Source: Paenibacillus sp.
Lineage (GTDB): Bacteria > Bacillota > Bacilli > Paenibacillales > YIM-B00363
DNA: 64,000 bases
NCBI RefSeq assembly: GCF_035645195.1
Contig: NZ_DASQNA010000014.1
Span: 1 to 64,000 of the forward strand
Reading direction: 5' to 3'
A program made the translations under genes and the position numbers. Shown here piece after piece: positions 37,147 through 56,706 of this stretch (positions are counted from its first letter, which is position 1; every line of letters begins with the position of its first letter). The notes beneath the pieces are model-generated. The model was not told the origin of the DNA. It made no database searches and saw nothing but the letters and a program-made list of their open reading frames with translations.

Positions 37147-38745
37147 ATGACTCGATTGCTGATCGTGGACGATGAACCGTTCATCGTGAATGGCCTGAAG
37201 ACCGCGGTGGATTGGGGGAACATCGGGGTCTCCGCCGTGCTGACGGCGAATAACGCTAGACAGGCGAAAGAAGTGTTCAACGACCGTAAACCGGACATTA
37301 TGATTTGCGATATTGAAATGCCGGAAGAAAGCGGATTGGACCTGCTGGCCTGGGTGAAGGAGCATTTCCCTTCGACGGAGTCGATTTTCCTAACTTGTCA
37401 TGCCGATTTTTCCTTTGCTCGTAAAGCTATCGAATTGGGCAGCTCGGATTACATTCTGAAGCCCGTGCCGCCCGAAACATTGGAATCGGCCGTTCTGAAG
37501 GTGATGGAGAAAATTCGCAAGCAGAACCGGTTGGCGGAACAAAGCCAATCTTGGGTACAGCATCATCCGCTGTTCATCGAACGATTCTGGCTTGATTTGG
37601 TGCAGCTCGTCGTCCCTCCGACCGAGGCGGCGGCGCGCCAGGTTATCAAGGAACGGAAAATTCCTTTCGACGAGGACATGCGGGTTTGGCCGGTGCTCAT
37701 TCACGTTCAGAGATGGCATAAGAAGATCCTGCAGCGCGACGAGAAAATTTTGGAGTATGCGCTCAAGAACGTCGCCGAAGAGAAGCTCCGCGATCTGGGC
37801 GCGAAGGTGAACGTCATCACGCTGGAAAGCCGTAAAATGTTGGCCTTGATCGAAGTGAAGCCGGATTCTCCCATTCGCCGGGAACAGTTACGAGATTTGT
37901 TCGAGTCGTACATCCAATCTTGCCGACCTTACTTCTACTGCGATATCTCGTGCTACGTCGGCAACATCTCGCCTATTCACGAAATTGCGAAACAGACGAA
38001 ACAGCTCCTTACGTTGCAGGCCAATAATGTCGCTTACAACAATCATGTTTTCCTAGAAGATCATCCGTCCGAACAGCTCGGCACGATCCCCATGCCGGAC
38101 ATGAAAATCTGGTATGTCATGCTCGCCAAGGGTTCGAAGACGGGGCTCATTTCCGAAGCGGAGCAATACTTGAACGCGCTGAAAAACCGCTCGGGATGCG
38201 ATGCGCGGTCGCTCAGTCATTTTCATCAAAATTTCTTGCAAATCCTATACACGTTCTTGCAGCAAAAAAATATCGAAGCTCGGCAGTTGTTTCATGACGC
38301 CACGTCCGCCGAATTGTCCGATCGAGCCATGCATTCCATCTCGGATATGCTGCAATGGGTCAAACACGTAACGGATAAAGCCATCGGTCAGGTCCAAGAA
38401 ATCGAACAGTCGCACTCCGTCGTGGAGAAAGCGCGCCGTTACATCGAAAGCCGTCTGGACCAAGAGTTGAGCCGGGAAGCGTTGGCGTCCCAATTTTATT
38501 TGAACCCCGATTACATGGATCGCTTGTTCAAGAAAGAAACGGGAATGTCCATGAAAGAGTATATGCTGAACGAACGGCTTCGCATCTCGGCGGAATTGCT
38601 TCAGAAAACCGATTTGCCCGTCACGGAAATCGCCATGCAAGTCGGGTATACGAGTCTTTCCGCATTTACGCGACTATTCAAGAAACATACCGATCTCAAC
38701 CCGAGCGACTACCGTCAGAAGCACAAAGCGGGCAGGTCGAAGTAA
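37147..38745 (+). CDS. YesN-type response regulator (second locus)
   Basis: The 532-residue regulator has a receiver with LIVDDEPFIVNGL, acceptor Asp54 in IMICDIEMPEESG and Lys in DYILKPV; a central region of unknown fold; and an AraC HTH at about 430-525 (LSREALASQFYLNPDYMDRL, then VTEIAMQVGYTSLSAFTRLF). GGGGGAACG precedes the ATG. The AraC domain is the natural candidate for binding the promoter element at 38752 and 48852, just downstream and at the far end of the locus (inference). Confidence 0.93.
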   Translation: MTRLLIVDDEPFIVNGLKTAVDWGNIGVSAVLTANNARQAKEVFNDRKPDIMICDIEMPEESGLDLLAWVKEHFPSTESIFLTCHADFSFARKAIELGSSDYILKPVPPETLESAVLKVMEKIRKQNRLAEQSQSWVQHHPLFIERFWLDLVQLVVPPTEAAARQVIKERKIPFDEDMRVWPVLIHVQRWHKKILQRDEKILEYALKNVAEEKLRDLGAKVNVITLESRKMLALIEVKPDSPIRREQLRDLFESYIQSCRPYFYCDISCYVGNISPIHEIAKQTKQLLTLQANNVAYNNHVFLEDHPSEQLGTIPMPDMKIWYVMLAKGSKTGLISEAEQYLNALKNRSGCDARSLSHFHQNFLQILYTFLQQKNIEARQLFHDATSAELSDRAMHSISDMLQWVKHVTDKAIGQVQEIEQSHSVVEKARRYIESRLDQELSREALASQFYLNPDYMDRLFKKETGMSMKEYMLNERLRISAELLQKTDLPVTEIAMQVGYTSLSAFTRLFKKHTDLNPSDYRQKHKAGRSK

Positions 38746-38840: not shown

Positions 38841-40382
38841 GTGAAAGCGTTTAAAAAGAGATGGTTGTTTGGACTTATCGCTGGTCTAACCGCGCTGACC
38901 GCCTGCACTTCCGGCAATTCGTCGTCGTCCGACACGAGCGGTTCGAGTTCGCCAGCCGCTGGCATCGAGTCGGAGCAGCCGTCGGCGGCTCCGGAAGAAA
39001 CTTATGAGCTGAACATGGCCTTCCCGATCTTCGGCCCCGTACCCGCGAATATGCCGGACGTGGAGCAAGCGATCAGCGAGATCACGAAACAAAAAATCAA
39101 CGCGACCGTCAAGCTGACGCCGATCAGCATTGGCGCCTGGGCCCAGCAATCTAATCTGATGCTGACGAGCGGGGAAAAGGTGGACCTGATTCTCGTGCTC
39201 GGGCGCGATTTAACCTCGTTGGTTGCCAAGGGACAGCTGCATGAACTGGACGCCTTGCTGAACGATCACGGCAAAGAGCTCACGGCAGCGTTCGATCCGC
39301 AGTACTTGAAAGCGACCATGGTCGGCGGCAGCACGTACGCCGTGCCTTCGTTAAGAGAAATGGCGGTCGATTATGGATTGTCCATCCTGAAAAGTTATGT
39401 AGACAAATACAATATCGATCCGGCTTCTATTAAAACGCTGGACGATTTGGACGGCATGTTCCAAACAATCAAAGCAGGCGAGCCGAACCTGCCGGCCATT
39501 CTCGTGCCGCAGTCGGTCGGCATCTCCTTCCTGGACAGCTACAGATGGTTCGACCCGCTGGGAGACGGCATCGGCGTGCTGCCGAATTTCGACGGCGGCT
39601 TGACGGTCGCCAACCTCTACGAAACGCCGGAATACGCGGCATTCGTGAAGAAGATGCGCGAATGGTATCAGGCGGGATATATCATGAAGGATGCCGCGAC
39701 GACCAAGGATAACGGCAACGCATTGATCAATGCAGGCAAAGGGATCGCTCGCTTCTCGAACTTGAAGCCGGGATACGAAAGACAGGCAGCGATCGAGTAC
39801 GGAGAACCTGCGACCGTCATTCGGATGACGAAAGTGTACGCGACCACTTCGACGGTCGCCGGTATTAACTGGGGCATTCCGCACAGCGCGGAGAAGCCGG
39901 ACAAATCGATGCAGTTCCTGAACCTCCTGTACTCCGACAAAGAGATTATCAACCTGCTCGATTGGGGCATCGAAGGCAAAGATTACGTGAAAAAGTCCGA
40001 CAATATTATCGCTTATCCGGAAGGCGTCACCGCCGAGACCGTCGTCTACAACCTGAATCAGGGCTGGATGTTCGGCAATCAGCTGCTGTCCTACATCTTC
40101 GAAGGCGAAGACCCGGATCTGTGGAAGAAGATGGAGGAGCATAACGCAAGCGCCATCAAATCTCCGGCACTCGGTTTTACGTTCGACCCGAGTCCGGTGA
40201 AAACGGAATTCGCCGCGGTCACGAACGTCATTAACCAATACAAGCTTCCGCTCGAGACAGGAAGCGTGGATCCGGACAAAATGCTGCCGGAGTTTATCAA
40301 CAAGCTGAAAACTTCCGGCATCGACAAAGTCATCGCCGAGAAGCAGAAGCAGTTGGATGAGTGGAAGGCACAAAACCAATAA
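38841..40382 (+). CDS. Extracellular solute-binding lipoprotein (second locus)
   Basis: The 513-residue lipoprotein has an N-terminal basic-hydrophobic signal with lipobox ALTACTSG and a Ser-rich linker. The body is a family-1 type binding fold, with INATVKLTPI, GEKVDLILVLGRDLTSLVA and GINWGIPHSAEKPDKSMQFL. It is shorter than, and poorly similar to, the first locus lipoprotein, so the ligand probably differs. GTG 38841 follows AAGGGGGAG. A perfect hairpin behind the gene separates it from the permeases. It is expressed from the YesN-type promoter just upstream. Confidence 0.9.
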   Translation: MKAFKKRWLFGLIAGLTALTACTSGNSSSSDTSGSSSPAAGIESEQPSAAPEETYELNMAFPIFGPVPANMPDVEQAISEITKQKINATVKLTPISIGAWAQQSNLMLTSGEKVDLILVLGRDLTSLVAKGQLHELDALLNDHGKELTAAFDPQYLKATMVGGSTYAVPSLREMAVDYGLSILKSYVDKYNIDPASIKTLDDLDGMFQTIKAGEPNLPAILVPQSVGISFLDSYRWFDPLGDGIGVLPNFDGGLTVANLYETPEYAAFVKKMREWYQAGYIMKDAATTKDNGNALINAGKGIARFSNLKPGYERQAAIEYGEPATVIRMTKVYATTSTVAGINWGIPHSAEKPDKSMQFLNLLYSDKEIINLLDWGIEGKDYVKKSDNIIAYPEGVTAETVVYNLNQGWMFGNQLLSYIFEGEDPDLWKKMEEHNASAIKSPALGFTFDPSPVKTEFAAVTNVINQYKLPLETGSVDPDKMLPEFINKLKTSGIDKVIAEKQKQLDEWKAQNQ

Positions 40383-40392
40383 GCAAGCGTGA

Positions 40393-40422
40393 ACGGCCCG
40401 GTCGGTTCGCCGACCGGGCCGT
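40393..40422 (+). other. Perfect UUCG-capped hairpin behind binding-protein gene
   Basis: A 13-bp perfect stem, ACGGCCCGGTCGG with its complement, closed by a TTCG tetraloop and lacking a T tract. Such structures protect upstream mRNA from 3' exonucleases, which would give excess binding protein over permease. Confidence 0.75.
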
Positions 40423-40454
40423 AACTACAAAAGAGAAGCGAGGAGGGAGTCAGG

Positions 40455-41387
40455 GTGGGGAATGCTGCGGTTCGAAAGCGCTGGCTGATCCTGAAATCGT
40501 TCGCGCCGCTGTATTTGCTGACGATTCCGGGATTGCTGTATTTGCTCATTAACAATTACCTTCCCATGTTCGGTTTAGTGATCGCCTTCAAAGACGTCAA
40601 TTTCAGCAAAGGGATTTTCGCCAGCGACTGGATCGGGTTTCGAAATTTCGAATACTTGTTTCGGTCCAGCGACGCCTACATTATTACTCGCAACACGATT
40701 CTTTATAACGCTGTGTTTATATTGCTAAATCTCGTCGTAGCGGTAGGCGTCGCCATTCTTCTGAACGAAATCAAAAACAAGCTGATGGCTCGATTTTACC
40801 AAAGCGTCGTTCTCTTGCCGTATCTAATCTCGATGGTCATCGTGAGCTACCTCGGTTACGCATTTCTTAGCATGGACAACGGCTTTATGAATAAGACGGT
40901 GCTTCCTTTCTTTGGGATGGAAGGGGTTTCGTGGTATAACGAGGCTGCGTATTGGCCTTACATCCTAACCTTCGTTCACACTTGGAAAGGTGCAGGATTC
41001 CTATGCGTGGTTTATTTGGCGGCCATCATCGGCATCGATCAGGAATATTACGAGGCCGCGACGTTGGACGGGGCGTCCAAATGGCAGCAAATCCGCTTCA
41101 TCACGATTCCGTTAATTACGCCGGTCATCATCATGATGACGCTGCTCGCGATCGGACGAATTTTTTACTCGGACTTCGGTTTGTTTTACCAAGTTCCAAT
41201 GGATTCGGGTTCGCTGTTTAACGTAACGAACGTGATCGACACGTACGTTTATAGGGGATTGATTCAGCTGGGAGACATCGGCATGTCTTCGGCGGCAGGC
41301 ATGTACCAGTCGCTGGTCGGTTTCGTCCTCGTCTTGTTCTCCAATTATGTCGTACGCAAAATCAACCGGGAGAATGCGCTCTTCTAA
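40455..41387 (+). CDS. ABC transporter permease (LplB-like, second locus)
   Basis: The 310-residue permease has six helices, an N-terminal APLYLLTIPGLLYLLINNYL segment and the EAA loop YYEAATLDGASKWQQIRFI (about 198-216). It belongs to the LplB group of carbohydrate permeases. GTG 40455 is the start, with AGGAGGGAG upstream. It works with the next permease; the ATPase is not encoded here. Confidence 0.92.
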   Translation: MGNAAVRKRWLILKSFAPLYLLTIPGLLYLLINNYLPMFGLVIAFKDVNFSKGIFASDWIGFRNFEYLFRSSDAYIITRNTILYNAVFILLNLVVAVGVAILLNEIKNKLMARFYQSVVLLPYLISMVIVSYLGYAFLSMDNGFMNKTVLPFFGMEGVSWYNEAAYWPYILTFVHTWKGAGFLCVVYLAAIIGIDQEYYEAATLDGASKWQQIRFITIPLITPVIIMMTLLAIGRIFYSDFGLFYQVPMDSGSLFNVTNVIDTYVYRGLIQLGDIGMSSAAGMYQSLVGFVLVLFSNYVVRKINRENALF

Positions 41388-41400
41388 GGAGGTTCCGCAG

Positions 41401-42297
41401 ATGAATCATAACAGCGAGACAAGAGCATGGCAGTGGGCGGGGCATTCCGTTCTCCTCTTGTATTCGGCGGCATGTGTGCTTCCATTCCTGCTGCTGTTCA
41501 TGTCTTCCATATCGGACGAGAACACGATCATGCAGAACGGTTATTCCTTTCTGCCGGAGAAGTACAGCTTGGACGCGTACCGTTATTTATGGAATGAATC
41601 GACGGATATATTCCGAGCATACGGGATTACGATTCTCATTACGGTGGTAGGGACTGCGGTCAGTCTGGCCATCACGTCCATGCTCGCTTACCCGATCTCG
41701 AGAAGAGATCTGCCCTACCGTAACCCGCTTGCTTTCTACGTGTTCTTCACGATGTTGTTTAACGGCGGACTCGTTCCGACGTATTACATCTACACCCAGG
41801 TGTTCGACCTGAAAAATACGCTGGGGGCGCTGCTCATACCGGGGCTGCTGATGAACGGCTTTAATGTGCTGCTGATGAGGACGTTCTTCATGACGACGAT
41901 CCCTCCGGCCATTCTGGAATCGGCGAAAATCGACGGCGCCGGAGAAATCCGAATTTTTTACAAGATCGTGCTGCCGCTGTCGCTTCCGATCTTGGCGACG
42001 ATCGGGCTGTTCCAGGCCATCGCCTATTGGAACGACTGGTTTAACGGTTTGATTTACATTACGAATCCGAAGCTGTTCAGCCTGCAAAATATTTTGAACC
42101 GCATTATGACGGATATCCAGTTTTTGTCGACGGATCCGTCGCTCAGCGCGCGAGCCTCCGGTTCGATGATGAATTTGCCGTCGGCTACGTTCCGGATGGC
42201 GATCGTGGTGATCGGGGTCATCCCGATTTTGCTCGCGTATCCGTTCTTTCAGAAGTATTTCGTCAAGGGGATCACGATCGGAGCAGTGAAAGGCTGA
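41401..42297 (+). CDS. ABC transporter permease (LplC/YtcP-like, second locus)
   Basis: The 298-residue permease has six helices, the EAA loop LESAKIDGAGEIRIFYKIVL (about 176-195) and the family C-terminus FFQKYFVKGITIGAVKG. ATG 41401 follows AAGGAGG at eight bases; longer readings start inside the previous gene. It forms the membrane channel with the permease encoded 13 bases upstream. Confidence 0.92.
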   Translation: MNHNSETRAWQWAGHSVLLLYSAACVLPFLLLFMSSISDENTIMQNGYSFLPEKYSLDAYRYLWNESTDIFRAYGITILITVVGTAVSLAITSMLAYPISRRDLPYRNPLAFYVFFTMLFNGGLVPTYYIYTQVFDLKNTLGALLIPGLLMNGFNVLLMRTFFMTTIPPAILESAKIDGAGEIRIFYKIVLPLSLPILATIGLFQAIAYWNDWFNGLIYITNPKLFSLQNILNRIMTDIQFLSTDPSLSARASGSMMNLPSATFRMAIVVIGVIPILLAYPFFQKYFVKGITIGAVKG

Positions 42298-42351
42298 CGC
42301 TTGCATGCGAGAGTGCCGGAACAGAAATCTAATGTCGCGGGAGGAATGGCA

Positions 42352-43650
42352 ATGGGTAAACATTACTACACGATTACCGAAGTTACGGATTTGGGGCCGT
42401 TCGTGTCAAAACTCGTGCTGCCGATGCCGGCAATCGTGAAGGCCGAAGCGGTGAAGCCGGAATGCTTTAACGTCTACGCGGAGCGGAAGGATCGGAAGGG
42501 AAATATCTTGATGCTTCCGAAGAGCTGGTCGGAGCGGGATGTGCTGAAGCCGAACAAGGGCTATTGCGTGGTGAAAGACGCGTACCCATCCACGGAGGAT
42601 GGCGAACGAACGGAAGAAGGGGAATTCGTTACCTTGGAAGTAAAGATGCAGCCGTTCGGCATCACCTCCCGGATCGCCTCGTCGAAGGGGCTGTATGGAA
42701 TGAACGAGTTTGTCATCAACGATTTCCGGATTACCCAAACCGCTGAGATTCCGGCGGGAGGGGAGTCGTTGACTGGATTGGTGTTCGACCGATGCGCGGG
42801 GGACACGATGAAGCAAACGGAGAAGTTCTTGCACGGGATTTCCTCCTATAAGGAATTGCCGCTACGGTATGGCTACTTCGTGCCGCAGACGGGCGACGGC
42901 AAGCGGCCGCTCCTCATCTGGCTGCATGGAGGCGGAGAAGGCGGACAAGATCCGGCGATCGCTTATGCAGGCAATAAGGTGGTGAATCTGGCCGGCGACG
43001 AAATGCAAGCCAAGTTCGGCGGAGCTTACGTATTGGCGCCGCAGTCGCCGACCTTCTGGATGGACGACGGCAGCGGAACGTACGGCAGAAGCGGCAAGTC
43101 CAAGTATGGGAAAGCATTGAAAGCGCTGATCGACGAATTTATTGCGAACAACGACGCGGCGATCGACACGTCCCGAATCTATATCGGCGGCTGCTCCAAC
43201 GGCGGATTCATGACGATGCGGATGGTGCTGGATTATCCGAACTTTTTCGCCGCGGCTTATCCGGTCTGCGAAGCGTTGTACGATGAGACGATCAGCGACG
43301 CGGAACTCCAGGCGATCGCGCATATGCCGATTTGGTTCGTGCATGCCAAGGATGACGAGATCGTGAAACCGGAAGAAACCGCGGTGCCGACCTACGAGCG
43401 CCTCATTCAGGCGGGAGCGAAGAACGTGCATTTCACGTTGTACGACAACGTGAAGGATCTTCATGGCCTGTTTACGGAGGAGTCGGAAGAACCGTATACG
43501 TACAATGGACATTTCACTTGGATCTACGCCTTGAACGACGACTGCCGCCTGGATTACGACGGGAAGCCTGTCACGGTCGACGGGGAGGAAGTGTCGCTGA
43601 TGGCATGGCTGGCGAAGCAGAGGCTCGAAACGAGGGTTATTGCGGGGTAA
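42352..43650 (+). CDS. Cytosolic EstA-like alpha/beta-hydrolase esterase
   Basis: The 432-residue protein has an N-terminal beta domain (about 1-150) like that of EstA-type esterases, then an alpha/beta hydrolase with oxyanion WLHGGGEGG, nucleophile Ser in IGGCSNGGFMTM (about 283), Asp in WFVHAKDDEIV and His in NGHFTW. It lacks a signal peptide, so it acts on an imported ester. Its relatives here are the secreted proteins at 17570 and 48983. ATG 42352 is chosen because GGGAGG then lies seven bases upstream; ATG 42346 is too close. Substrate unknown; an acyl or aromatic ester of a sugar fits the neighbouring genes (inference). Confidence 0.8.
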   Translation: MGKHYYTITEVTDLGPFVSKLVLPMPAIVKAEAVKPECFNVYAERKDRKGNILMLPKSWSERDVLKPNKGYCVVKDAYPSTEDGERTEEGEFVTLEVKMQPFGITSRIASSKGLYGMNEFVINDFRITQTAEIPAGGESLTGLVFDRCAGDTMKQTEKFLHGISSYKELPLRYGYFVPQTGDGKRPLLIWLHGGGEGGQDPAIAYAGNKVVNLAGDEMQAKFGGAYVLAPQSPTFWMDDGSGTYGRSGKSKYGKALKALIDEFIANNDAAIDTSRIYIGGCSNGGFMTMRMVLDYPNFFAAAYPVCEALYDETISDAELQAIAHMPIWFVHAKDDEIVKPEETAVPTYERLIQAGAKNVHFTLYDNVKDLHGLFTEESEEPYTYNGHFTWIYALNDDCRLDYDGKPVTVDGEEVSLMAWLAKQRLETRVIAG

Positions 43651-43692
43651 TCGAACATGGTTTGCTAAAACGACGGATCGGAGCGGAAAACG

Positions 43693-44634
43693 ATGAAATT
43701 AATCAGTTATCGTTACGAAGGGCATACCCGAATCGGCATCATCCAGGAAGAACAAGTGATCGATCTCCATTACGCTTACCGCACGATGCTGGAAGCGGAA
43801 GGCGCGATTCGCGCCGCCCACATCGCGGAGGCGTTCGTGCCTGCGAATATGACCGAATTTTTGCAGGGCGGGGAGCAAAGCATGAAGCTTGCTCGGCAGG
43901 CCGTCGATTTTATCCGAACGTATAACGGGTCCGTGAAATATAAAACGGTTCATGCAGTATGTGAGGTGAAAATCGAAGCGCCGGTTCCGAACCCCGGGAA
44001 AATGATCTGCGTCGGTCACAACTACCGCGAGCACATTTTGGAAATGGGACGCGGTTTGCCGGAATTCCCGGTCGTCTTCGCCAAGTTCGCCAACACGATC
44101 GTCGGACCGCAAGACGATATTCCGTTCTACCCGATATCCGAGCAACTGGACTACGAAGCGGAATTCGCCTTCGTGATCGGCAGGCGCGCTCGGAACGTCG
44201 CTCAAGTGGACGCGCTGCAATATGTGGCCGGGTACACGATCGTCAACGATGTCACGTACCGGGATATTCAGCGCAGGACGCTGCAGTGGCTCCAGGGCAA
44301 AACCGTCGAAGGCAGCGCGCCGATGGGGCCGTGGCTGGTAACGTCCGACGAGCTTAAGGACCCTGCGGGGCTGGACGTCGTGCTAACCGTCAACGGCGAG
44401 GAGCGCCAACGCTCCAATACCGCCAACCTTGTGTTCAGCGTGCCGTACTTGGTTGAATTCCTCTCCGGCTTGATGACGCTCGAACCGGGCGACATCGTTC
44501 TGACCGGAACGCCGGGCGGCGTCGGCGTGGCGCGCGATCCGCAAGTATTTCTGAAAGACGGCGATGTCGTGCGGATCGAGATCGACGGAATCGGCGCGCT
44601 CGAGAACAAAGTAAGAAAGATGGAGGGAGTCTAA
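43693..44634 (+). CDS. Fumarylacetoacetate hydrolase family protein (likely fumarylpyruvate hydrolase)
   Basis: The 313-residue enzyme has an N-terminal FAH-type domain and the catalytic C-terminal fold from about 98 (KMICVGHNYREHILEMG). The metal site is seen in LDYEAEFAFVIG (two Glu) and TIVNDVTYRD (Asp). Members split C-C bonds in acylpyruvates. Because a gentisate dioxygenase-like gene lies two genes downstream, fumarylpyruvate to fumarate and pyruvate is the best guess. The other main option is a 2-keto-3-deoxy-sugar-acid hydrolase or dehydratase. The gene ends two bases before the DinB start codon. Confidence 0.85.
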   Translation: MKLISYRYEGHTRIGIIQEEQVIDLHYAYRTMLEAEGAIRAAHIAEAFVPANMTEFLQGGEQSMKLARQAVDFIRTYNGSVKYKTVHAVCEVKIEAPVPNPGKMICVGHNYREHILEMGRGLPEFPVVFAKFANTIVGPQDDIPFYPISEQLDYEAEFAFVIGRRARNVAQVDALQYVAGYTIVNDVTYRDIQRRTLQWLQGKTVEGSAPMGPWLVTSDELKDPAGLDVVLTVNGEERQRSNTANLVFSVPYLVEFLSGLMTLEPGDIVLTGTPGGVGVARDPQVFLKDGDVVRIEIDGIGALENKVRKMEGV

Positions 44635-44636
44635 TC

Positions 44637-45131
44637 ATGTCCGTGAAAGATTCGATCCTCTCCATTCAGCAAACGACGGATCAAATCGTTCGAACTTGCG
44701 AGCGATTGCCCCAGGAAGTGCTGCTATGGAAACCTTCAGAAGAAAAATGGTCGGTCATGGAAGTGTTGTGCCATGTGGAAGAGGTCGTTCCGTATTGGCT
44801 CGCAGAACTGCAGGAGACGATTGAGTCGCCGCAAAGATCGTGGGGCAGGGGGCTGCAGCACGAGGGAAGACTCGCGGCCGTGGCGGTCGCTCATGAACGG
44901 AACGCGTCGGAAGTGCTTCGAAATATAACGAATTCGAAACGGCAGGTGGAAGACGTCCTCGGCGCCATCAGCGAAGATGAGCTGGGGATCGAGGCGGAAA
45001 GCCGCAACCCGCGGTTCGGCACGAAGCCGCTGTCTTTCATCGTCGAGCATCTGCTTAAGGAGCATCTGGTTACGCATTACCAACAGATCATGCGCAATAT
45101 CGAAGCTGCCAAGGGAGCTACCCACGACTAA
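44637..45131 (+). CDS. DinB superfamily protein, candidate maleylpyruvate isomerase
   Basis: The 164-residue four-helix-bundle protein has the DinB metal triad: His46 (CHVEEV), His143 and His147 (KEHLVTHYQQ). DinB/YfiT proteins include the bacillithiol S-transferases of Firmicutes, and the fold is shared with the mycothiol-dependent maleylpyruvate isomerase of actinobacteria. Sitting between the FAH hydrolase and the gentisate dioxygenase, it fills the slot of the missing isomerase. That role, with bacillithiol as the cofactor, is inference. ATG 44637 is two bases past the previous stop, with GGAGGGAG upstream. Confidence 0.8.
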   Translation: MSVKDSILSIQQTTDQIVRTCERLPQEVLLWKPSEEKWSVMEVLCHVEEVVPYWLAELQETIESPQRSWGRGLQHEGRLAAVAVAHERNASEVLRNITNSKRQVEDVLGAISEDELGIEAESRNPRFGTKPLSFIVEHLLKEHLVTHYQQIMRNIEAAKGATHD

Positions 45132-45146
45132 AGGAGGTGCGGACGA

Positions 45147-46259
45147 TTGGCGGAGCACAACGATTTTTTCCAAAGCCAGACGGTGAAAGATTTTAACCGC
45201 GAAATCGCAAAGTACAACCTTGGTCCGCTATGGGACGCTATTCCGTTGTTAATGCATAAGCAGCCGACGCCGCAAGCCGAAGCGTACTTGTGGAAATGGG
45301 AGGCGGTAGCGGCGAAGCTGATGGAGGCGCGGGAGATTTTCACGCCCGAGCGCGGCGGGGAACGTCGTGCGATCTACTTCCAGAATCCCGGACTTGCGCA
45401 CCGTCAGCCGAGCGGCTGGGCTTCTACGACGCAAACGTTGTACGCCGCCGTGCAGCTGCTGCTTCCGGGCGAAACCGCGCCGTCGCATCGCCACACGCAG
45501 AGCGCGCTTCGGTTCATCATGCAAGGCGAAGGCGCGTATTCCATCGTGCAGGGCGAGCGTCACTTCATGGAAGAAGGAGACTTCCTGACGACGCCGAAGG
45601 GGCTCTGGCACGGCCATGCCCATCCGGGAGATCGACCGATGATCTGGTTGGATTGCCTCGATATCCCGACGATCTACGCGATTGGGGGAACGTTCTTCGA
45701 AGGGCATCCGGATCGCATCGAGCAGCCTGAAATCCCGGATCTCTACAGCCCATCGCGATACGAAGGCGGAATGGTCCGTCCGATCGGAGACCGCGAGCCG
45801 AAGATCGCTCCGGTAGGCTCCTACAAGTGGAAGCAAACGCTGGCCGCATTGCAAGGGATGAGCCGCTTCGAGCCGGACGCCTTCGACGGTTACGCCGTAG
45901 AATTCATCAATCCTTCGACAGGCAAAACGGCCAACCCGAATATCGCGGCTTGGATGCATATGCTTCCGGCGGGCTTTCGTTCCAAGGCTCATCGGCATAC
46001 GAGTTCGACGATTTATCAAGTATTCAAAGGATCAGGGTATTCCGTCGTCAACGGCATTCGATTCGACTGGTCGCAAGGCGACGTCTTCGTCGTGCCGAAC
46101 TGGGCGTGGCATGAGCATGCCGCATCCGAAGACGCTTATTTGTTCTCCGCCAGCGACTTGCCGATTATGGAGAAGTTCGAGCTGGAACGCCGGGAAGCTT
46201 ATGAGACGGACCAGGGTCATCAGCGCGTGACGGGCGAATTCATCCCCGTCTTGCCATAA
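45147..46259 (+). CDS. Gentisate 1,2-dioxygenase-like bicupin
   Basis: The 370-residue protein has two cupin domains. The first has the iron ligands His114 and His116 (APSHRHTQSALRF) and His155 in KGLWHGHAH; the second (about 255-350) has SKAHRHTSSTIYQV and WAWHEHAA. This fits gentisate 1,2-dioxygenase, which opens 2,5-dihydroxybenzoate to maleylpyruvate. A salicylate or 1-hydroxy-2-naphthoate dioxygenase is the main alternative. TTG 45147 is the start, with AAGGAGG at nine bases. It completes a three-gene ring-cleavage module with FAH and DinB genes. Confidence 0.88.
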   Translation: MAEHNDFFQSQTVKDFNREIAKYNLGPLWDAIPLLMHKQPTPQAEAYLWKWEAVAAKLMEAREIFTPERGGERRAIYFQNPGLAHRQPSGWASTTQTLYAAVQLLLPGETAPSHRHTQSALRFIMQGEGAYSIVQGERHFMEEGDFLTTPKGLWHGHAHPGDRPMIWLDCLDIPTIYAIGGTFFEGHPDRIEQPEIPDLYSPSRYEGGMVRPIGDREPKIAPVGSYKWKQTLAALQGMSRFEPDAFDGYAVEFINPSTGKTANPNIAAWMHMLPAGFRSKAHRHTSSTIYQVFKGSGYSVVNGIRFDWSQGDVFVVPNWAWHEHAASEDAYLFSASDLPIMEKFELERREAYETDQGHQRVTGEFIPVLP

Positions 46260-46270
46260 ACGGATTTCCA

Positions 46271-46302
46271 ACGAGCCGCGGCCGTAAGAAGCTGCGGCTT
46301 GT
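46271..46302 (+). terminator. Hairpin between dioxygenase and GH3 genes
   Basis: ACGAGCCGC / GCGGCTTGT stem followed by a T-rich but broken tract (ATTGTATT). Termination is at best partial, so GH3 may still be read through. Confidence 0.4.
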
Positions 46303-46337
46303 ATTGTATTGCGCGATGAAAAGGAGAGTGCGGGAAG

Positions 46338-48737
46338 GTGTCGAGAAACTACCCTTACCTAAATAAAGAGCTATCGGTCGAGGAACGTACAGCCGACTTG
46401 TTGTCCAGAATGACGCTAAAGGAGAAAATCGCTCAACTCGGGTGCGCGTTTTGGAATTCGCGCCTGCCCGAGGAACAACAGCAGCTTATGTTAAGCGACG
46501 GAATCGGTCAAATTTCCGCCCTTCTTTTCGGAGGCATGGGCAGCAGCGTGCAAGAGGCGGCTCAAGCGATCGCCGGGATCCAACAACGATTAATCGAACA
46601 AACCCGATTAGGCATTCCGGCGATCATCCATGGGGAAGCGTTATCCGGGGCGCTGCTTCCCGGCGCGGACAATTTCCCGTTGGCCATCGGGCTGGGCGCC
46701 GCCTGGAATCCGGATTCCATCGAGGCGATGGCCGAAGTGATCCGCAAGCAATTTCGCGCCGTCGGGATCGCGCAAGCCCTTTCGCCGGTGTTGGACGTAG
46801 GCCGCGATCCGAGATGGGGGCGCATCGGCGAAACGTACGGGGAAGATCCGACGTTAATTTCGAGCCTTGGGGTTGCCTTCGTACGCGGATTGCAAGGGGA
46901 CACCTTGAGTGAAGGCGTCGCTGCGACCGCCAAGCATTTCCTCGGGTACTCGATGACCGAAGGCGCGCTGAACATGACCGAGGAGCACATCCCGCCGAGA
47001 ACGCTTCGCGAGGTGTATGCGAGACCTTTCGAAGCGGTCATTCGGAAAGCCGATCTGGCGTCGGTCATGAATTCCTATAGCTCTTTAGATGGGGAGCCTA
47101 TTATTTCATCCAGGGCGATTCTGACGGACTTGCTTCGGGGCGAGCTCGGTTTCCGGGGACTTACCGTAACCGACTACAGGTCCATCGATAAACTGGTCGA
47201 TTCGTTCAAGACGGCCAAGGATATGAGGGAAGCGGGTGTACAGGCCATGAAAGCCGGCATGGACATGGAGCTTCCGAGTACGCTCGCATACGGCGCTCCG
47301 CTGCTCGAGGCGGTCGAAGCCGGCGATGTCGATCGGGAATGGATCGACCAAGCGGTTTCAAGAGTACTACAGATGAAATTTATGCTCGGTTTATTCGAAC
47401 GTCCTTATCCCGATCCGGATCGAATTGAAACCGCCTTTCATCAACCTGAAGATGCGAATCTGTCGCTCGCTGTCGCAAGGCAGTCTATCGTTCTGGTCAA
47501 GAACGAAGGAGATTTGCTGCCGTTGAATCCCAGGTACAAGAAGATTGCCGTGATCGGGCCGAATGCTCGCTCCTTGCGAAATCTATTCGGAGGGTATACG
47601 CATCCGGCAGCCAAGGAGTTATCGTTCGGTATGGCGAGAATGGCAGGGGTCGAAATTTCCGGCGTTCAAGATCGAACGTACGAGGATCAACTGCATGAGA
47701 TGGAGTCCGCCTACTTGCCTAAGCTTTATCCGAAGACTTCGACGGTATGGGGCGAGTTGAAGGAGCGGTTGCCGCAGGCGGAAATTACGTACGCCCAAGG
47801 CTGCGAACTGATGGGAGACGACCGGTCGGGCTTCGAGGAAGCGGTTCGGCTGGCGCGCGAAGCCGAGGCGGCCATTCTCGTCGTTGGCGGCAAGGATGGG
47901 TTCGGACCGCCTTGCACGACGGGCGAAGGGAACGATTCCTCCCACATCGGCCTGTCCGGCGTGCAAGAGGAGCTTGTTCAAGCGATCCATGCCGCCGGAA
48001 CGCCGATCGTCGTCGTCCACATGAGCGCCCGTCCGCTGGTCAGCCCTTGGATCGCCGCCCACGTTCCGGCCATTGTCGAAGCGTGGCATCCGGGAGAGTC
48101 GGGGGGACGCGCCATCGTAGATGTTCTGGTAGGCGACTATAATCCTGGAGGGAAGCTGCCCGTGACCGTGCCGAGAAGCGTCGGGCAGGTCCCGGTGTAT
48201 TACGCGCATCGCAACGGCAGCGGTTACGAGGGACGTCACATGAGAATGTTCGTCTCGGAGCAAGGGTATGTCAACGAATCGCTGCAGCCGTTGTATCCCT
48301 TCGGACACGGGCTGTCCTACACGAAGTTTACTTATTCCGACTTCGAGATTTCCGAGCGGCGGGTGACGACCGACCAGTCGGTTACGATATCATGCCGCGT
48401 AACCAACGACGGGCCGCGGGACGGCGACGAGGTCGTACAGGTGTACATCAGCGATCGATGGGCCTCCGTCGTCCGTCCGGTGAAAGAGCTGGCAGGTTTT
48501 AAACGGATCCATCTCAAGCGAGGGGAGCAGAAGAGAGTCTCTTTCACCGTCGCCATGAGTCAGCTCTGCTTTTTAAATAAGGACATGAAATGGGTCGTCG
48601 AGCCGGGAGAGATGTCGGTCATCATTGGCACTTCCGCAACGGATAGTAGGTTGGAAGGGACATTCGAAATTGTAGGGGACGCTGCTGTCGTTAAAGACGA
48701 AACGAAACAGTTTTTCGCCGAGGTGCAAGTAAGCTAG
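46338..48737 (+). CDS. Beta-glycosidase, GH3 (glucosidase or xylosidase)
   Basis: The 799-residue enzyme has the GH3 barrel with HGEALSG, GRDPRWGRIGETYGEDP, AKHFLGY, and nucleophile Asp279 in GLTVTDYRSID; then the alpha/beta sandwich (about 380-640) and a C-terminal fibronectin-III-like domain (about 680-760: GDEVVQVYISD, ELAGFKRIHL). There is no signal peptide, so it acts in the cytosol. The family removes beta-linked glucose or xylose from oligosaccharides or aryl glycosides. GTG 46338 is the start, with AAGGAGA upstream. Placement after gentisate dioxygenase allows an aryl-beta-glycoside substrate (inference). Confidence 0.92.
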   Translation: MSRNYPYLNKELSVEERTADLLSRMTLKEKIAQLGCAFWNSRLPEEQQQLMLSDGIGQISALLFGGMGSSVQEAAQAIAGIQQRLIEQTRLGIPAIIHGEALSGALLPGADNFPLAIGLGAAWNPDSIEAMAEVIRKQFRAVGIAQALSPVLDVGRDPRWGRIGETYGEDPTLISSLGVAFVRGLQGDTLSEGVAATAKHFLGYSMTEGALNMTEEHIPPRTLREVYARPFEAVIRKADLASVMNSYSSLDGEPIISSRAILTDLLRGELGFRGLTVTDYRSIDKLVDSFKTAKDMREAGVQAMKAGMDMELPSTLAYGAPLLEAVEAGDVDREWIDQAVSRVLQMKFMLGLFERPYPDPDRIETAFHQPEDANLSLAVARQSIVLVKNEGDLLPLNPRYKKIAVIGPNARSLRNLFGGYTHPAAKELSFGMARMAGVEISGVQDRTYEDQLHEMESAYLPKLYPKTSTVWGELKERLPQAEITYAQGCELMGDDRSGFEEAVRLAREAEAAILVVGGKDGFGPPCTTGEGNDSSHIGLSGVQEELVQAIHAAGTPIVVVHMSARPLVSPWIAAHVPAIVEAWHPGESGGRAIVDVLVGDYNPGGKLPVTVPRSVGQVPVYYAHRNGSGYEGRHMRMFVSEQGYVNESLQPLYPFGHGLSYTKFTYSDFEISERRVTTDQSVTISCRVTNDGPRDGDEVVQVYISDRWASVVRPVKELAGFKRIHLKRGEQKRVSFTVAMSQLCFLNKDMKWVVEPGEMSVIIGTSATDSRLEGTFEIVGDAAVVKDETKQFFAEVQVS

Positions 48738-48982: not shown

Positions 48983-51130
48983 ATGATTCGAAAGAACAGA
49001 GCCTTTGCAAAAGTATTACACGTGCTCCTCATGGTCTCCTTATTCATTCCAAGCGCGGTCCCCGCATTCGCTGCCGATGATTCGGCCGTGCAGAGCGCCG
49101 CAGAAGTCTCCGGTCGCATCGATACGGTGAAAGTGGGCCCTATCGGAGATGAAATCGAAGTTTATGTATATGTGCCTGACGCGATTCAACTTGTCGCCTG
49201 GACCAATCCGATTCTCTTGGTTTATGGCGACGAAGACTTTACTGCAGAAACCGCCAAACAGGCGGCTGAGGGAAGCGGGCTAGCGGCGCTTGCGGCCAGA
49301 GACAACGCCGTAATTACATTTGTAAATTCGAAAGGAGCCGCATGGAGCGCTGCCGATGTCGCTGTTTATAAAGATATCATCGTCGACAAGTATGCGGAAA
49401 GACCAGACAATACATGGGAGAACGGGAAGACGGCCGGCGGGAAATATGCCGGATACTTATACCGCATCTACGTTATTGCCGAGGGAAGCGGAGCCGACTT
49501 TGTCAGCCAATATCTCGTCGACGACGAGTTGAACCATGCGCTCAGACCCGGTTTTACTTTAAGTATCCCTCCTTCGTCCGTGATGCTGTTTAACACGACG
49601 CATGTGCCGACGGCGGCGCAACGGGAATATCCCGCAGTGGTCATCAACGGCAGCGAGGAAGTCAATGCGAAGTATGCGTCCCTTAACAAAGAACATCATG
49701 TTCTGTTCGGTACAAGCAGCATTACGGATGGCTTCGACCCAGGCATGATCGCGGCGCACTACAAGAAATTGACGAGCGTCAGAAGGCAGGATTTCGACTG
49801 GAAAGGAAACAGCGCAATATACGATATCCCGGACTACGAGGCGCTAGGGGTAGAGATTAATGCCGTTAGACACACTTTGGCGTCCAACAAATCCATTACG
49901 TATCTCGAGCATATCCCCCCATCCGTTGATCGAAGTAAAGAGGGCAGCGTTCCGCTTGTCATGCTGTACCATGGCGCAGGGGAAAAAGCCGAATATTTCG
50001 ATATGCTCTCCGAATGGCCTGCGCTAGGCGCTGAGGCAGGATTCGTAACGGTAACCGTAGATCAGCATCAAACGATTACGAACGATGAAAATATGGAATT
50101 GATAAACTCCATCTTAGAGAGACACCCCTTTATCGACCGAACCCGAGTATATGCTTCCGGTTTCTCTATGGGCTCCATGAAAACGTTTCAGCTCGGCACC
50201 CAGTTTCCGGAGTTCTTCGCCGGCATTGCTCCGATGAACATTGCCCCGGCCCCGCCCGGAGGACTGATCGATGTAGTTATTCCAACCATCTACATCACAG
50301 GAAGCGACGATCCATTCCCCGTGTTCCCGCATCAGAACGGTTCTCTGAACAATGTGGACAGGATGATGGAGCGCATTTTCCAGATGAACGACATCGGCAA
50401 TTACGTTTACGATGCGAGCGCCGGCAACCCGTGGGGGATCACATTTGATCATGTCGCAGCCGTGAAAGCAGAACAGGGAATAGGCACGATTACCATCAAC
50501 TCTGTAAAAAGCAACGATGGGAATGTATATACCAAATTTGTGAATACCTCCTACGTAGGACATGCGATTTTCGCCGAGCATGCATCTATTGCCTGGGATT
50601 TCCTGAGCCAGTTCAGCAGAAATGAAGACGGCACGGTCTCGCGGCGTCATCAAGTCATGTTCGTCACCGAACCCGCCGAATCGTTGGTTGTTGTGAGCGA
50701 TCAAAACGGCAATATCGTTGCTCCGGAATCGGACGGCGCCGGATTCGTTTATTTGTTGCCGGAGGGCGTCTACTCTTACACAGTGAAGAGCGACGGTTAC
50801 GAGGTAAAGACCGGCTCGATGTCAGTTACGCAGGCGGAAACCATCCATGTCAAGCTTGAGCCCGCCATCAAAATCACCTCTGTCGCGCAGAGCAACGGGC
50901 AATGGGACGTCCTGTTCGACATTCGTTCCGCGAACGGCAAGGGATATAGCGCCTATATCTCCGAAACCGGCGAGAAAGGCTCGTTCGTTTCGGCAAATGC
51001 GAGCTTCAATAGCAAGGGGGCGAATATCAAAAAGCTGGATAACAGCAAAACGTACTTTGTCTACATCGAGTACAGCAACGGCGATCTCTATGAAAGAAGC
51101 GCCATTGTGAAATTGATTTCCGCGGAATAG
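48983..51130 (+). CDS. Large secreted esterase with two hydrolase-like halves and PEGA-like domain
   Basis: The 715-residue protein has a signal peptide (VLHVLLMVSLFIPSAVPAFA, cleavage near residue 32). Residues about 40-280 look like an alpha/beta-hydrolase without a recognisable GxSxG Ser. Residues about 290-540 form a full hydrolase: MLYHGAGEKAEYF and nucleophile Ser near 395 in ASGFSMGSMKTF, with GSDDPFPVF and VGHAIF for Asp and His. A PEGA-like beta domain (about 555-635) and a C-terminal beta domain follow. It is probably an extracellular polysaccharide or phenolic-ester esterase. It is linked to the importer by an identical promoter element. GAGGTGA precedes ATG 48983. Confidence 0.8.
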   Translation: MIRKNRAFAKVLHVLLMVSLFIPSAVPAFAADDSAVQSAAEVSGRIDTVKVGPIGDEIEVYVYVPDAIQLVAWTNPILLVYGDEDFTAETAKQAAEGSGLAALAARDNAVITFVNSKGAAWSAADVAVYKDIIVDKYAERPDNTWENGKTAGGKYAGYLYRIYVIAEGSGADFVSQYLVDDELNHALRPGFTLSIPPSSVMLFNTTHVPTAAQREYPAVVINGSEEVNAKYASLNKEHHVLFGTSSITDGFDPGMIAAHYKKLTSVRRQDFDWKGNSAIYDIPDYEALGVEINAVRHTLASNKSITYLEHIPPSVDRSKEGSVPLVMLYHGAGEKAEYFDMLSEWPALGAEAGFVTVTVDQHQTITNDENMELINSILERHPFIDRTRVYASGFSMGSMKTFQLGTQFPEFFAGIAPMNIAPAPPGGLIDVVIPTIYITGSDDPFPVFPHQNGSLNNVDRMMERIFQMNDIGNYVYDASAGNPWGITFDHVAAVKAEQGIGTITINSVKSNDGNVYTKFVNTSYVGHAIFAEHASIAWDFLSQFSRNEDGTVSRRHQVMFVTEPAESLVVVSDQNGNIVAPESDGAGFVYLLPEGVYSYTVKSDGYEVKTGSMSVTQAETIHVKLEPAIKITSVAQSNGQWDVLFDIRSANGKGYSAYISETGEKGSFVSANASFNSKGANIKKLDNSKTYFVYIEYSNGDLYERSAIVKLISAE

Positions 51131-54321: not shown

Positions 54322-54405
54322 CTCAAGCGAGAATTACGTCATCGCTGACGTGATTGCGGCGAACAGAGACGAGTAACCGTGGTCACTCTATGCAGGAAAA
54401 CGCGA

Positions 54406-54440
54406 ACAAGCCGGCGGGATTCGCCGGCTTGTCTTATTTA
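54406..54440. terminator. Bidirectional terminator between converging genes
   Basis: Perfect 11-bp stem ACAAGCCGGCG / CGCCGGCTTGT with a five-base loop, followed by CTTATTTATT on the plus strand and GTTTTCC on the minus strand. Confidence 0.8.
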
Positions 54441-55697: not shown

Positions 55698-55938
55698 TCG
55701 TCTCCACTACCTCTCCCGCGTTTCATCCGCCTTAACGATTTGTTTACAAAACGAAGTATAGGCGGCGAAGCTGAAGCGGTCTTGAGCGTTAGCTGAAAAC
55801 AAGCTGAACGTCTTGCAGCATTTTTTTCGCCGGTTTCCCGATAGATGAGATGGAACAGTGTTCAAATCCGCGCGATTTTGCCATGATGAACGTACCGGAA
55901 CGTTACGGAAGATAGAAGGAATGGGGGGCGTCCGTCTT

Positions 55939-56706
55939 ATGGCTGCGTATTCGTGCAAAATTTTGGAGACCGAACGGCTGTCCGCGGAGCTGTACCTCGT
56001 CCATGCGCTGCTGTGGGAGGGGACGCTCCCGTCGGCGGCGGGGCTCGTGCGCGGATGGACGGTGCGCGGAGAGCGGATCGAAGCGCCCGTCGGATTCGCC
56101 GATCTCGGAGGCGCTTATCGGAACCGAATCAAGTTTTTCGTCGACGCGGGCCGCTGCGCCGATTCGGCGAAAGCCGCCCTGCGGGCCGCGTCATCGGGCG
56201 GCATCGAATTCGCGGGCGCGCCGCTTGCGATTCGGACGGAAGGGAGCAAGCTGTTCGCCGTCGCCGACGCGTCCGGAACGGCCGCGGCGCTGCCCGCGCT
56301 GCTCGCGGCGGCCCGCTTCGGCATCCCGGCGGAGCTGGCGTGGGTCGGAGCGATGAACAAGCCCGTCTTCCGCGCATGGAAGTCGTACGCCGACCGTCTG
56401 AACGTCCCGGTCCATGCGTTCCAAGACAACACGGCGCTGGCGAAGCTGCTCGCGGGGCGGCCGAGCGGCGCGCGCCTGCTCGCGGCATGCGAATGGCGGG
56501 AGCTCGAAGCCGTCCGCCGCCGCGCGCGGGAAGCCGGATTCGCGGAGGAGGAGATGCAGTGCGTCGTCTTCGGCCCGCCGAGCCCCGCGCGTCCGGCGCC
56601 GGAGAGCGATGCCGAGCGAAGGGGACGCTTGCCGATCGAAGCGGACCAACGAACGCGGCGAACGATAAGCGCCTGGCTCCCGCGCGCGAAGTCGGCGCAG
56701 AATTAA
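55939..56706 (+). CDS. Unrecognised protein, weakly like siderophore-interacting FAD proteins
   Basis: The 255-residue protein is unfamiliar. Its C-terminal half (about 110-225) follows the layout of the SIP domain: FAVADASGTAAALPALLAAA in place of the GDETALPA block, then RLLAACEWRELEAVRRRARE in place of the WVAGEA block. The N-terminal half could be a shortened FAD domain (VRGWTVRGERIEAPVGF), but a flavin-binding motif is not visible. ATG 55939 has GGGGGG eight bases upstream; GTG 55858 and ATG 55921 are alternatives. It is followed by a terminator before acoR. Very GC-rich and in keeping with the core genome. Confidence 0.55.
   Translation: MAAYSCKILETERLSAELYLVHALLWEGTLPSAAGLVRGWTVRGERIEAPVGFADLGGAYRNRIKFFVDAGRCADSAKAALRAASSGGIEFAGAPLAIRTEGSKLFAVADASGTAAALPALLAAARFGIPAELAWVGAMNKPVFRAWKSYADRLNVPVHAFQDNTALAKLLAGRPSGARLLAACEWRELEAVRRRAREAGFAEEEMQCVVFGPPSPARPAPESDAERRGRLPIEADQRTRRTISAWLPRAKSAQN

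Follow-up and report, generated by a model that had tools for sequence, protein, structure and literature searches.

Importer loci of the YesMN/LplABC type are, as we take it, a known kind in Paenibacillus and its relatives. They have in common a regulator pair, a lipoprotein, two permeases and an adjoining glycosidase, with no local ATPase gene. Gentisate breakdown has reportedly been described as well: Paenibacillus sp. NyZ101 is said, in work by Liu and Zhou in 2012, to have a gentisate pathway with an L-cysteine-dependent maleylpyruvate isomerase. The locus considered here lies in a window of 64,000 nucleotides (the whole stretch of DNA analysed) from a Paenibacillus sp., and differs from the importer loci by containing a ring-cleavage cassette. 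One strand carries, with short gaps, YesMN, a lipoprotein, two permeases, an EstA-like esterase, an FAH hydrolase, a DinB protein, a cupin and a GH3 glycosidase. The original prediction had given this gene set, order and strand, and open reading frames together with NCBIfam and Pfam searches bear it out in full:

35398..37134, + strand, YesM-type sensor kinase (open reading frame; 41-54% relatives stand before importer copies)
37147..38745, + strand, YesN-type response regulator (open reading frame)
38841..40382, + strand, solute-binding lipoprotein, LplA type (PF01547, PF12010; Cys after a hydrophobic N-terminal stretch)
40393..40422, + strand, 13-bp perfect hairpin between the lipoprotein and first permease genes (read by eye)
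40455..41387, + strand, sugar-type ABC permease 1, LplB type (PF00528)
41401..42297, + strand, sugar-type ABC permease 2, LplC type (PF00528; mechanical ORF start 41347)
42346..43650, + strand, cytosolic EstA-like esterase (PF18435 and abhydrolase; mechanical ORF start 42301)
43693..44634, + strand, FAH-family hydrolase, assigned as fumarylpyruvate hydrolase (PF01557, 250 bits)
44637..45131, + strand, DinB-family protein, assigned as thiol-dependent maleylpyruvate isomerase (PF12867)
45147..46259, + strand, gentisate 1,2-dioxygenase-type bicupin (TIGR02272)
46271..46302, + strand, weak terminator-like hairpin 3' of the cassette (12-bp stem, weak T-tail)
46338..48737, + strand, GH3 beta-glycosidase, beta-xylosidase-like, without signal peptide (PF00933, PF01915, PF14310)
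48983..51130, + strand, secreted esterase-type protein (NF050058, 57 bits, below cut-off; signal peptide)

The gaps are 42 bp between esterase and FAH, 2 bp between FAH and DinB, 15 bp between DinB and cupin, and 78 bp between cupin and GH3. Each gene from lipoprotein to GH3 has a purine-rich ribosome-binding site in front of it, given starts at 41401 for permease 2 and 42346 for the esterase, which replace the mechanical first starts; these sites and the N-termini were judged by eye. Are the genes transcribed together? Co-transcription would be our reading, and the promoter scan neither supports nor splits such a unit, since all four promoter-like sites (6.2 in shuffles) lie on the minus strand. 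The hairpin at 46271-46302 may partly uncouple GH3 from the cassette; the region holds 12 terminator-like sites against a shuffled mean of 11.9, so that this hairpin by itself proves nothing. A T-tailed hairpin, read by eye, lies directly 3' of the 48983-51130 gene, which may belong to the same locus.

The cupin looks, from its sequence, like a gentisate 1,2-dioxygenase. With the solved enzymes 2d40 (E 9e-75) and 3bu7 (E 4e-73) it shares the bicupin form, alignment over most of its length and the metal-type His residues. Unlike what one would expect of a true equivalog, it scores under the curated cut-off, with 314 bits over nearly the full TIGR02272 model (cut-off 442) and 313 bits with NF049978 (cut-off 650). 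H114, H116, H155, R122 and H157 of the first cupin, presumably metal- and substrate-binding residues, are invariant in an alignment of nine sequences, the window protein included, and align with H119, H121, H160, R127 and H162 of 4fag. Its own genome holds a single match for this protein, adjoined by the FAH and DinB partners of the gentisate pathway.

Both its Pfam domain and structural matches of a predicted model (pLDDT 95) give the DinB protein a DinB fold. The best match, together with 2rd9, is the bacillithiol transferase BstA/YfiT of Bacillus subtilis (1rxq, Z 17.9), a transferase at 10% identity that shares three conserved His with the same H-x3-H end: H67, H160 and H164 form the metal triad of BstA, and H46, H143 and H147 of the window protein are invariant in all 20 aligned sequences. 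The mycothiol-dependent maleylpyruvate isomerase of Corynebacterium glutamicum (2nsf, Z 13.8) also has the fold, at 13% identity and 240 residues versus 164. Mycothiol is actinobacterial, so the cofactor of the window protein would differ. The lower pathway reported for NyZ101 is the same, its dioxygenase and hydrolase steps being linked by a thiol-dependent isomerase, which is presumably a DinB protein. The modelled fold thus fits a thiol-dependent maleylpyruvate isomerase, and FAH, DinB and cupin would then make up the whole ring-opening route. The FAH protein belongs to the FAH fold family and is 74% identical to an Aeribacillus cassette FAH. It scores above cut-off with no listed NCBIfam model, and three cassette relatives score alike. 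Its top match, below cut-off, is a sugar-acid hydrolase, and FAHs of cassettes without sugar genes around them give like scores with the same models, so that this match is non-specific.

For GH3, the domains and the names of the nearest solved relatives, 7zb3 and 8c7f (beta-xylosidase and xylosidase; 702 and 698 bits, the next 440), point to a beta-xylosidase; with the curated xylosidase/arabinosidase model NF052329 it reaches 643 bits, under the cut-off of 1050. It is probably a beta-xylosidase or beta-glucosidase. By eye, neither GH3 nor the EstA-like esterase (nearest solved structure 3doh, E 6e-22) has a signal peptide. The 48983-51130 product has one, and gave no match in the Pfam search.

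Is the cassette peculiar to this locus? FAH-DinB-cupin recurs across Bacillota as a gentisate cassette. Among 36 named loci, defined by a dioxygenase open reading frame of at least 60% and counted within 10.5 kb, FAH is present in all 36, a called DinB in 28, an IclR regulator in 29, an FAD hydroxylase in 16 and a TRAP carrier in 11; an EstA-like esterase is near none of the 36. Within the order the cassette is patchy: 15 of 392 genomes have it, the present one counted, and a search of five genomes from the same genus, among them one that is 81% complete, gave none.

Besides the window, four other Paenibacillaceae have the cassette with sugar-importer genes and GH3, sulfatase or both. In Paenibacillus sp. 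Soil766 one strand reads YesN, sulfatase, YesM, permease, permease, GH3, sulfatase, solute-binding protein, sulfatase, sulfatase, FAH, DinB, dioxygenase; between the first permease and the dioxygenase, neighbouring genes are spaced -23 to 153 bp apart. Ammoniphilus YIM 78166 has sulfatases, a 67% relative of the window GH3, a second GH3 and the cassette all in line; the 67% relative adjoins the cassette, and its gene is interrupted by stops. The P. ginsengihumi cassette has sulfatases alongside and no GH3. Unlike these four, the window cassette has no sulfatase within 10.5 kb. Of the 11 cassette loci in nine genomes, 4 have a GH3 gene within 10.5 kb where 0.11 would be expected (window excluded, 3 of 10 against 0.09, P 8e-5), and 4 have two or more sulfatases near, against 0.03; the calculation takes gene placement as random and was made after the pattern had been noticed. 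The five sugar-linked rows do not group as a single clade in the dioxygenase tree. Explaining their label takes three changes, a number as low in 6 of 500 shuffles; a single gain with two losses may account for it. An FAD hydroxylase was seen neither in the four other sugar-linked loci (chance 0.08; the Soil766 locus is seen on one side only) nor in the window, which is weakly in line with gentisate arriving ready-made. Importers also stand beside a P. thalictri cassette that keeps its hydroxylase and IclR regulator, and near three Bacillaceae cassettes (L121, L134, L141), so that importer neighbours by themselves say little.

From the importer side the picture is different. The original prediction had named, as grounds for its refutation, a lack of the cassette in otherwise conserved copies of this locus, and such a lack is indeed observed. 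The cassette is absent from all six inspected importer copies with a permease of at least 60%, in the stretch seen (L102, L104, L180, L188, L197, L198), and from DNA near all five esterase copies of at least 70% (L102-L106). The best-conserved copy, in P. ginsengihumi (G054), runs YesMN, solute-binding protein, permease, permease, esterase at 45-78% identity, followed by an apiosidase-like gene, and has its cassette on another contig. With the cassette absent there and from five further importer copies, the locus is not a conserved dedicated one, and its linkage to the importer is not fixed across relatives. In L102, L180, L188, L197 and L198 the importer copy likewise follows a YesM/YesN pair. 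Relatives of the importer, GH3 and esterase are also found with GH115, GH78, GH30 and apiosidase-like genes, which are ordinary hemicellulose or pectin contexts. The gene-order comparison proposed for Paenibacillaceae thus came out divided, with sugar-linked cassettes in four others and none in the conserved importer/esterase copies.

The window's own genome adds further context. Upstream of the locus, GH127-like, GH51 and GH43 genes look like a block for arabinoxylan use. Contig C8 carries a second island, with paralogous importers, sulfatases, a beta-glucuronidase and a meta-cleavage pathway. No Rieske hydroxylase match was found in this genome; the best match there to a 3-hydroxybenzoate 6-hydroxylase-type enzyme was 22%, a weak negative because the same search missed a PF01494 monooxygenase that the genome does have.

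What might such a locus do? We put at about one in two the chance that a mobile gentisate cassette was recruited into a carbohydrate-uptake locus that imports a plant phenolic glycoconjugate, frees the phenolic and opens its ring. YesMN would sense the conjugate, which the lipoprotein and two permeases, with an ATPase encoded elsewhere, would import as the source of gentisate. GH3, the EstA-like esterase or both would free gentisate in the cytosol. The cupin would convert it to maleylpyruvate, the DinB protein, using a low-molecular-weight thiol, would form fumarylpyruvate, and the FAH hydrolase would yield fumarate and pyruvate. The second island on C8 counts in favour of this reading, the arabinoxylan-type block upstream and the cassette-free importer copies against it. 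The prediction of sugar-conjugate uptake gains from the cassette, its sugar-linked recurrence and the xylosidase-like GH3; which ester, glycoside and substrate are involved is still inference. Plant gentisate glycosides of the kind it invoked do exist: poplar contains gentisic acid 2-O-glucoside, and tomato a gentisate xyloside. The imported compound might be gentisate 5-O-xyloside, gentisate glucoside or one of the poplar-type compounds such as trichocarpin.

One might think instead that the neighbours met by chance, a mobile cassette having landed in a hemicellulose importer locus whose transcription it rides, while free gentisate enters otherwise and the importer serves ordinary oligosaccharides. 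The absence from importer copies and from the same genus, the patchy spread in the order, the hemicellulose contexts of the relatives, and the sheer commonness of sugar-binding proteins (a match in 192 of 198 genomes) favour this account. Against it, GH3 and sulfatase neighbours exceed random placement in rows outside one clade, Ammoniphilus has the same GH3 type by its cassette, and Soil766 has its one-strand run; we consider it unlikely, though it deserves serious weight.

It is less probable still that the importer takes arabinoxylan-type oligosaccharides from which the esterase removes acyl or aryl groups, the cassette handling co-released phenolics and not the imported molecule. The adjacent GH43, GH51 and GH127-like genes, the beta-xylosidase affinity of GH3 and the secreted second esterase would suit such a division of labour. 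However, NCBIfam and Pfam recognised no ferulate genes in the locus, and the main cell-wall phenolics, ferulate and coumarate, do not enter the gentisate route. Could the substrate of the cassette be a different 5-substituted salicylate, or an acid derived from a sugar? The near-equal scores with TIGR02272 and the 5-aminosalicylate dioxygenase model NF049978, and the sugar-acid match of FAH, lean that way; the latter has been seen to be non-specific, and cassette relatives (65-79%) stand with IclR regulators, FAD hydroxylases and TRAP carriers, which suits aromatic acids. We think this substrate shift very improbable.

Returning to the recruited cassette and conjugate uptake, the similar pairing in relatives suggests that these bacteria eat sugar-bound plant phenolics. 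More tentatively, and at somewhat under even odds, Paenibacillus and its relatives may have a class of islands that join YesMN importers, glycosidases and/or S1-type sulfatases to complete ring-cleavage pathways, with conjugates imported whole. The window would be its xylosidase/esterase-gentisate type, Soil766, P. puerhi and Ammoniphilus its sulfatase/GH3-gentisate type, P. ginsengihumi its sulfatase-gentisate type, and contig C8 its sulfatase/beta-glucuronidase-meta-cleavage type. Plants turn salicylate-derived gentisate into xylosides and glucosides for storage, and among the phenolics of poplars are glycosylated and sulfated ones; to our knowledge, the import of such conjugates whole by soil bacteria, and the carriers involved, are largely undescribed. 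From the recurrent pairing come named strains and a set of genes open to testing; the DinB protein lets a bacillithiol- or cysteine-dependent maleylpyruvate isomerase be tested in Bacillota. If the island class is real, sulfated and glycosylated phenolics, whether plant storage forms or sulfate and glucuronide conjugates, would be imported whole and mineralised.

What might three genes set between a sugar importer and a glycosidase encode? Every gene listed in the original prediction was found, in the order claimed: YesM, YesN, an SBP lipoprotein, two permeases and an EstA-like esterase, then the cassette, then the GH3 gene (46338-48737).

43693-46259, plus strand: the cassette, comprising genes for an FAH hydrolase, a DinB protein and a gentisate-dioxygenase-type cupin

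Alignments of the cupin with solved gentisate 1,2-dioxygenases (2d40, E 9e-75; 3bu7, E 4e-73) span most of its length, and His114, His116, His155, Arg122 and His157, the counterparts of His119, His121, His160, Arg127 and His162 in 4fag, are invariant in nine aligned sequences, the window's included. Its score against the curated model TIGR02272 is 314 bits, below the cut-off of 442, and a search of its own genome (5.95 Mb, 55 contigs) gave no other match of its kind. The DinB protein, to which the original prediction had assigned no step, gave nothing usable against the PDB by sequence (best E 0.27), so that a fold search was needed; its model (pLDDT 95) has the YfiT/BstA fold (Z 17.9) and resembles the mycothiol-dependent maleylpyruvate isomerase 2nsf (Z 13.8). 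In C. glutamicum such a mycothiol-dependent isomerase is said to be tied to gentisate use, and Paenibacillus NyZ101 reportedly has an L-cysteine-dependent one. Because helical bundles may reach a Z of about 13 from their arrangement alone, we place the weight of the assignment on the shared Pfam family and on three histidines (46, 143 and 147) that are invariant in 20 of 20 aligned sequences. A His triad of this kind is described in a passage on BstA of B. subtilis (PMC5815605).

One might take the FAH protein for a sugar-acid hydrolase, its top NCBIfam match being 2,4-didehydro-3-deoxy-L-rhamnonate hydrolase. We dropped this reading because the FAH of an Aeribacillus cassette, 74% identical to the window's and away from sugar genes, scores alike with that model (221 bits, versus 209 for the window protein). 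Identity between the window FAH and an unrelated FAH on contig C8 of the same genome is 30%. The cupin would convert gentisate to maleylpyruvate, the DinB protein would turn this into fumarylpyruvate, and the FAH hydrolase would yield fumarate and pyruvate; together they would form a complete gentisate ring-opening route. The assignment of the cassette to gentisate is very probably correct.

Does the cassette belong to the importer? Scanning named genomes for the dioxygenase, we found 49 loci: 36 whose dioxygenase ORF is at least 60% identical, 11 below 60%, and two (L135 and L139) outside the 36, where tblastn matched a dioxygenase but the gene caller gave no dioxygenase ORF. Within 10.5 kb of the dioxygenase, all 36 loci have an FAH gene, 29 an IclR regulator, 28 a DinB gene, 16 an FAD hydroxylase and 11 a TRAP carrier; SBPs occur at five, GH3 at three, and a window-type esterase at none. 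Sulfatases occur at five by profile, or at four without the P. naphthalenovorans locus L112, whose sulfatase, a profile call absent among the five Pfam matches listed, is not counted. Neighbor labels come from small profiles built on ORFs of this analysis, part of them checked with Pfam. From these counts we therefore regard the cassette as a gentisate module of Bacillota that occurs in several contexts. It was not found in five same-genus genomes searched, and 15 of 392 genomes of the order, its own counted, have a match at E 1e-100 or better. P. naphthalenovorans (G034; loci L112, L125 and L145) and genome G022 each carry three or more gentisate-dioxygenase-type genes, in differing contexts.

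By its own account the original prediction would be refuted if conserved copies of the locus lacked the cassette, and such copies exist: the cassette is absent from the P. ginsengihumi copy and from five further importer copies. In P. ginsengihumi, YesM, YesN, SBP, the two permeases and the esterase are 46, 45, 51, 75, 72 and 78% identical to those of the window; the esterase is followed by an apiosidase-like gene, and the cassette is on a separate contig. Nor was the cassette seen in the importer copies L104, L180, L188, L197 and L198 (permease at least 60%; stretch seen), or near any of five esterase copies of at least 70% (L102-L106). The importer family is thus not dedicated to gentisate, and addition of the cassette to the window's copy is the simplest explanation. 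The closest importer paralog in the same genome (L197; contig C22, 51.7-61.2 kb; YesM 54, SBP 58, permeases 73 and 69%) includes a GH2 enzyme and lies near a sulfatase, and no ring-cleavage genes were recognized in the stretch seen.

GC content is about 56-59% in the cassette versus 49-55% in the importer genes, and since that of GH3 is as high as the cassette's, it gives no clear insertion border. The region is carbohydrate-rich, as another YesMN-importer module, containing GH127-like, GH51 and GH43 genes, lies upstream of the YesMN pair before the cassette's importer. The window also holds three esterase-type genes (17570-19270, 42301-43650 and 48983-51130), two with signal peptides and one cytosolic; after a GH4 gene, ORFs of 480 and 282 aa (54354-55796 and 55858-56706) without a Pfam match at E 0.001; and, at its start (243-1856), a run of 18 tRNA genes.

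Similar pairings recur elsewhere. The cassette of Paenibacillus sp. Soil766 comes last in a run of genes on one strand, after YESN, a sulfatase, YESM, permeases, GH3, a sulfatase, an SBP and two sulfatases. Sulfatases, importers and YesMN pairs also surround the cassettes of P. puerhi and P. ginsengihumi; of these two, only P. puerhi has GH3 there. In Ammoniphilus YIM 78166, seven sulfatase ORFs (own profile) and two GH3 genes, the first 67% identical to the window's, stand directly upstream of the cassette; Pfam finds eight sulfatases in that genome, at least five of them just upstream of the cassette among the matches listed. In this stretch (L174 and L175; 131-151 kb of contig C1 of G392, the Ammoniphilus genome) the window-like GH3 is broken by stop codons, and the second GH3 and the cassette are open. 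Since these genomes abound in SBPs and four loci (L116, L121, L134 and L141) also have importer genes near, an importer beside the cassette says little by itself. We therefore used GH3 and sulfatases, counted by Pfam in nine genomes, the sulfatases among the matches listed. Of the 11 cassette loci, 4 have GH3 within 10.5 kb, versus 0.11 expected, or, with the window left out, 3 of 10 versus 0.09, with a P of 8e-5 that assumes random gene placement and was computed after the pattern was known, as were the other P values; two or more sulfatases accompany 4 of 11 loci versus 0.03 expected. Observed values and spans were entered by hand from the Pfam and neighbor-label results.

We call a locus sugar-linked if it has GH3 or at least two sulfatases, a rule that leaves the P. 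thalictri locus (L116) outside the set. A dioxygenase tree of 40 rows groups the window with Soil766 and P. puerhi (support 95/96) and places P. ginsengihumi and Ammoniphilus outside that group. The label needs three changes on this tree, matched by 6 of 500 shuffles; since three changes could be one gain and two losses, separate origins of the linkage are likely but not proven. The original prediction, that the locus imports a sugar conjugate of gentisate, frees it and opens the ring, is thus borne out in kind by the recurring pairings, but not in detail, the cassette being no conserved part of the importer. On our reading, the cassette has been added to one locus among several related ones for glycoconjugate uptake.

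Where would the gentisate come from? No FAD hydroxylase was seen in the window or the four other sugar-linked loci, a weak sign given that 16 of the 36 loci overall have one, and limited in Soil766 by a contig end 360 bp past the cassette. P. thalictri, with importers present, keeps its FAD hydroxylase. The window's own genome gave no match to a Rieske hydroxylase and no close match to a 3-hydroxybenzoate 6-hydroxylase-type enzyme (best 22%), the latter in a search that also missed a PF01494 enzyme present there, of the 4-hydroxybenzoate hydroxylase type and hardly alike to the query. The missing hydroxylases fit gentisate delivered ready-made, tempered by that oversight. Chemically, trichocarpin is the glucoside of a gentisate ester, and salirepin that of gentisyl alcohol. 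Trichocarpin and gentisic acid 2-O-glucoside appear in a listing of poplar metabolites (PMC10402742), and a passage on poplar leaves gives measurements of salirepin-7-sulfate (PMC8195509). For tomato, one account reckons total gentisate as free acid plus xyloside (PMC5125658), and a passage on salicylate hydroxylation includes DHBA glucosides and xylosides among the end products (PMC11416591). In the open-access literature we found nothing on a gentisate glucoside and sulfatase in Paenibacillus, on a bacterial beta-xylosidase with gentisic acid xyloside, or linking gentisate dioxygenase to a sulfatase and a glycoside hydrolase.

Among solved structures, those closest to the GH3 enzyme carry the names beta-xylosidase and xylosidase (702 and 698 bits; the next scores 440), and no signal peptide was seen when its N-terminus was inspected by eye. 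On contig C49 of P. puerhi a 68% relative lies next to two sulfatases and a paralogous importer, after which come GH78, a BD-FAE-type esterase, further GH3 and GH30; in genome G105 a 56% relative precedes a GH115 gene. We put the probability that the substrate is a gentisate-releasing conjugate at about 0.5.

The same genome holds a second aromatic island.

Contig C8, about 124-166 kb (L198, L199 and L208), one strand: importer, sulfatases, beta-glucuronidase and a putative meta-cleavage set

Its YesMN-permease-permease-SBP set is paralogous to that of the window (permeases 68 and 62%). After it, on one strand, come sulfatases and a beta-glucuronidase (closest solved structure 4jkm, 910 bits), 23 bp past which a catechol 2,3-dioxygenase-like enzyme starts; close relatives of this dioxygenase (40-48%) occur in 4 other genomes of 198. 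Further downstream are hydrolases, a CoA transferase subunit, a thiolase, another sulfatase and an MFS carrier, and finally a LigB-type dioxygenase, an aldehyde dehydrogenase, two FAH proteins, an acylating acetaldehyde dehydrogenase, a DmpG-type aldolase, an amidohydrolase and a 4-hydroxybenzoate hydroxylase. This final set reads as a meta-cleavage pathway and resembles the Paenibacillus cluster for 2,3-cleavage of protocatechuate. On its own the beta-glucuronidase is a common enzyme (matches at E 1e-150 or better in 42 of 198 genomes, including this one), and a heparinase-like gene nearby makes glycosaminoglycan use a possible role for part of the island. Since this genome has two ring-cleavage modules, both next to importers from the same paralogous family, the most economical view, we infer, is that this organism has a conjugated-phenolic lifestyle.
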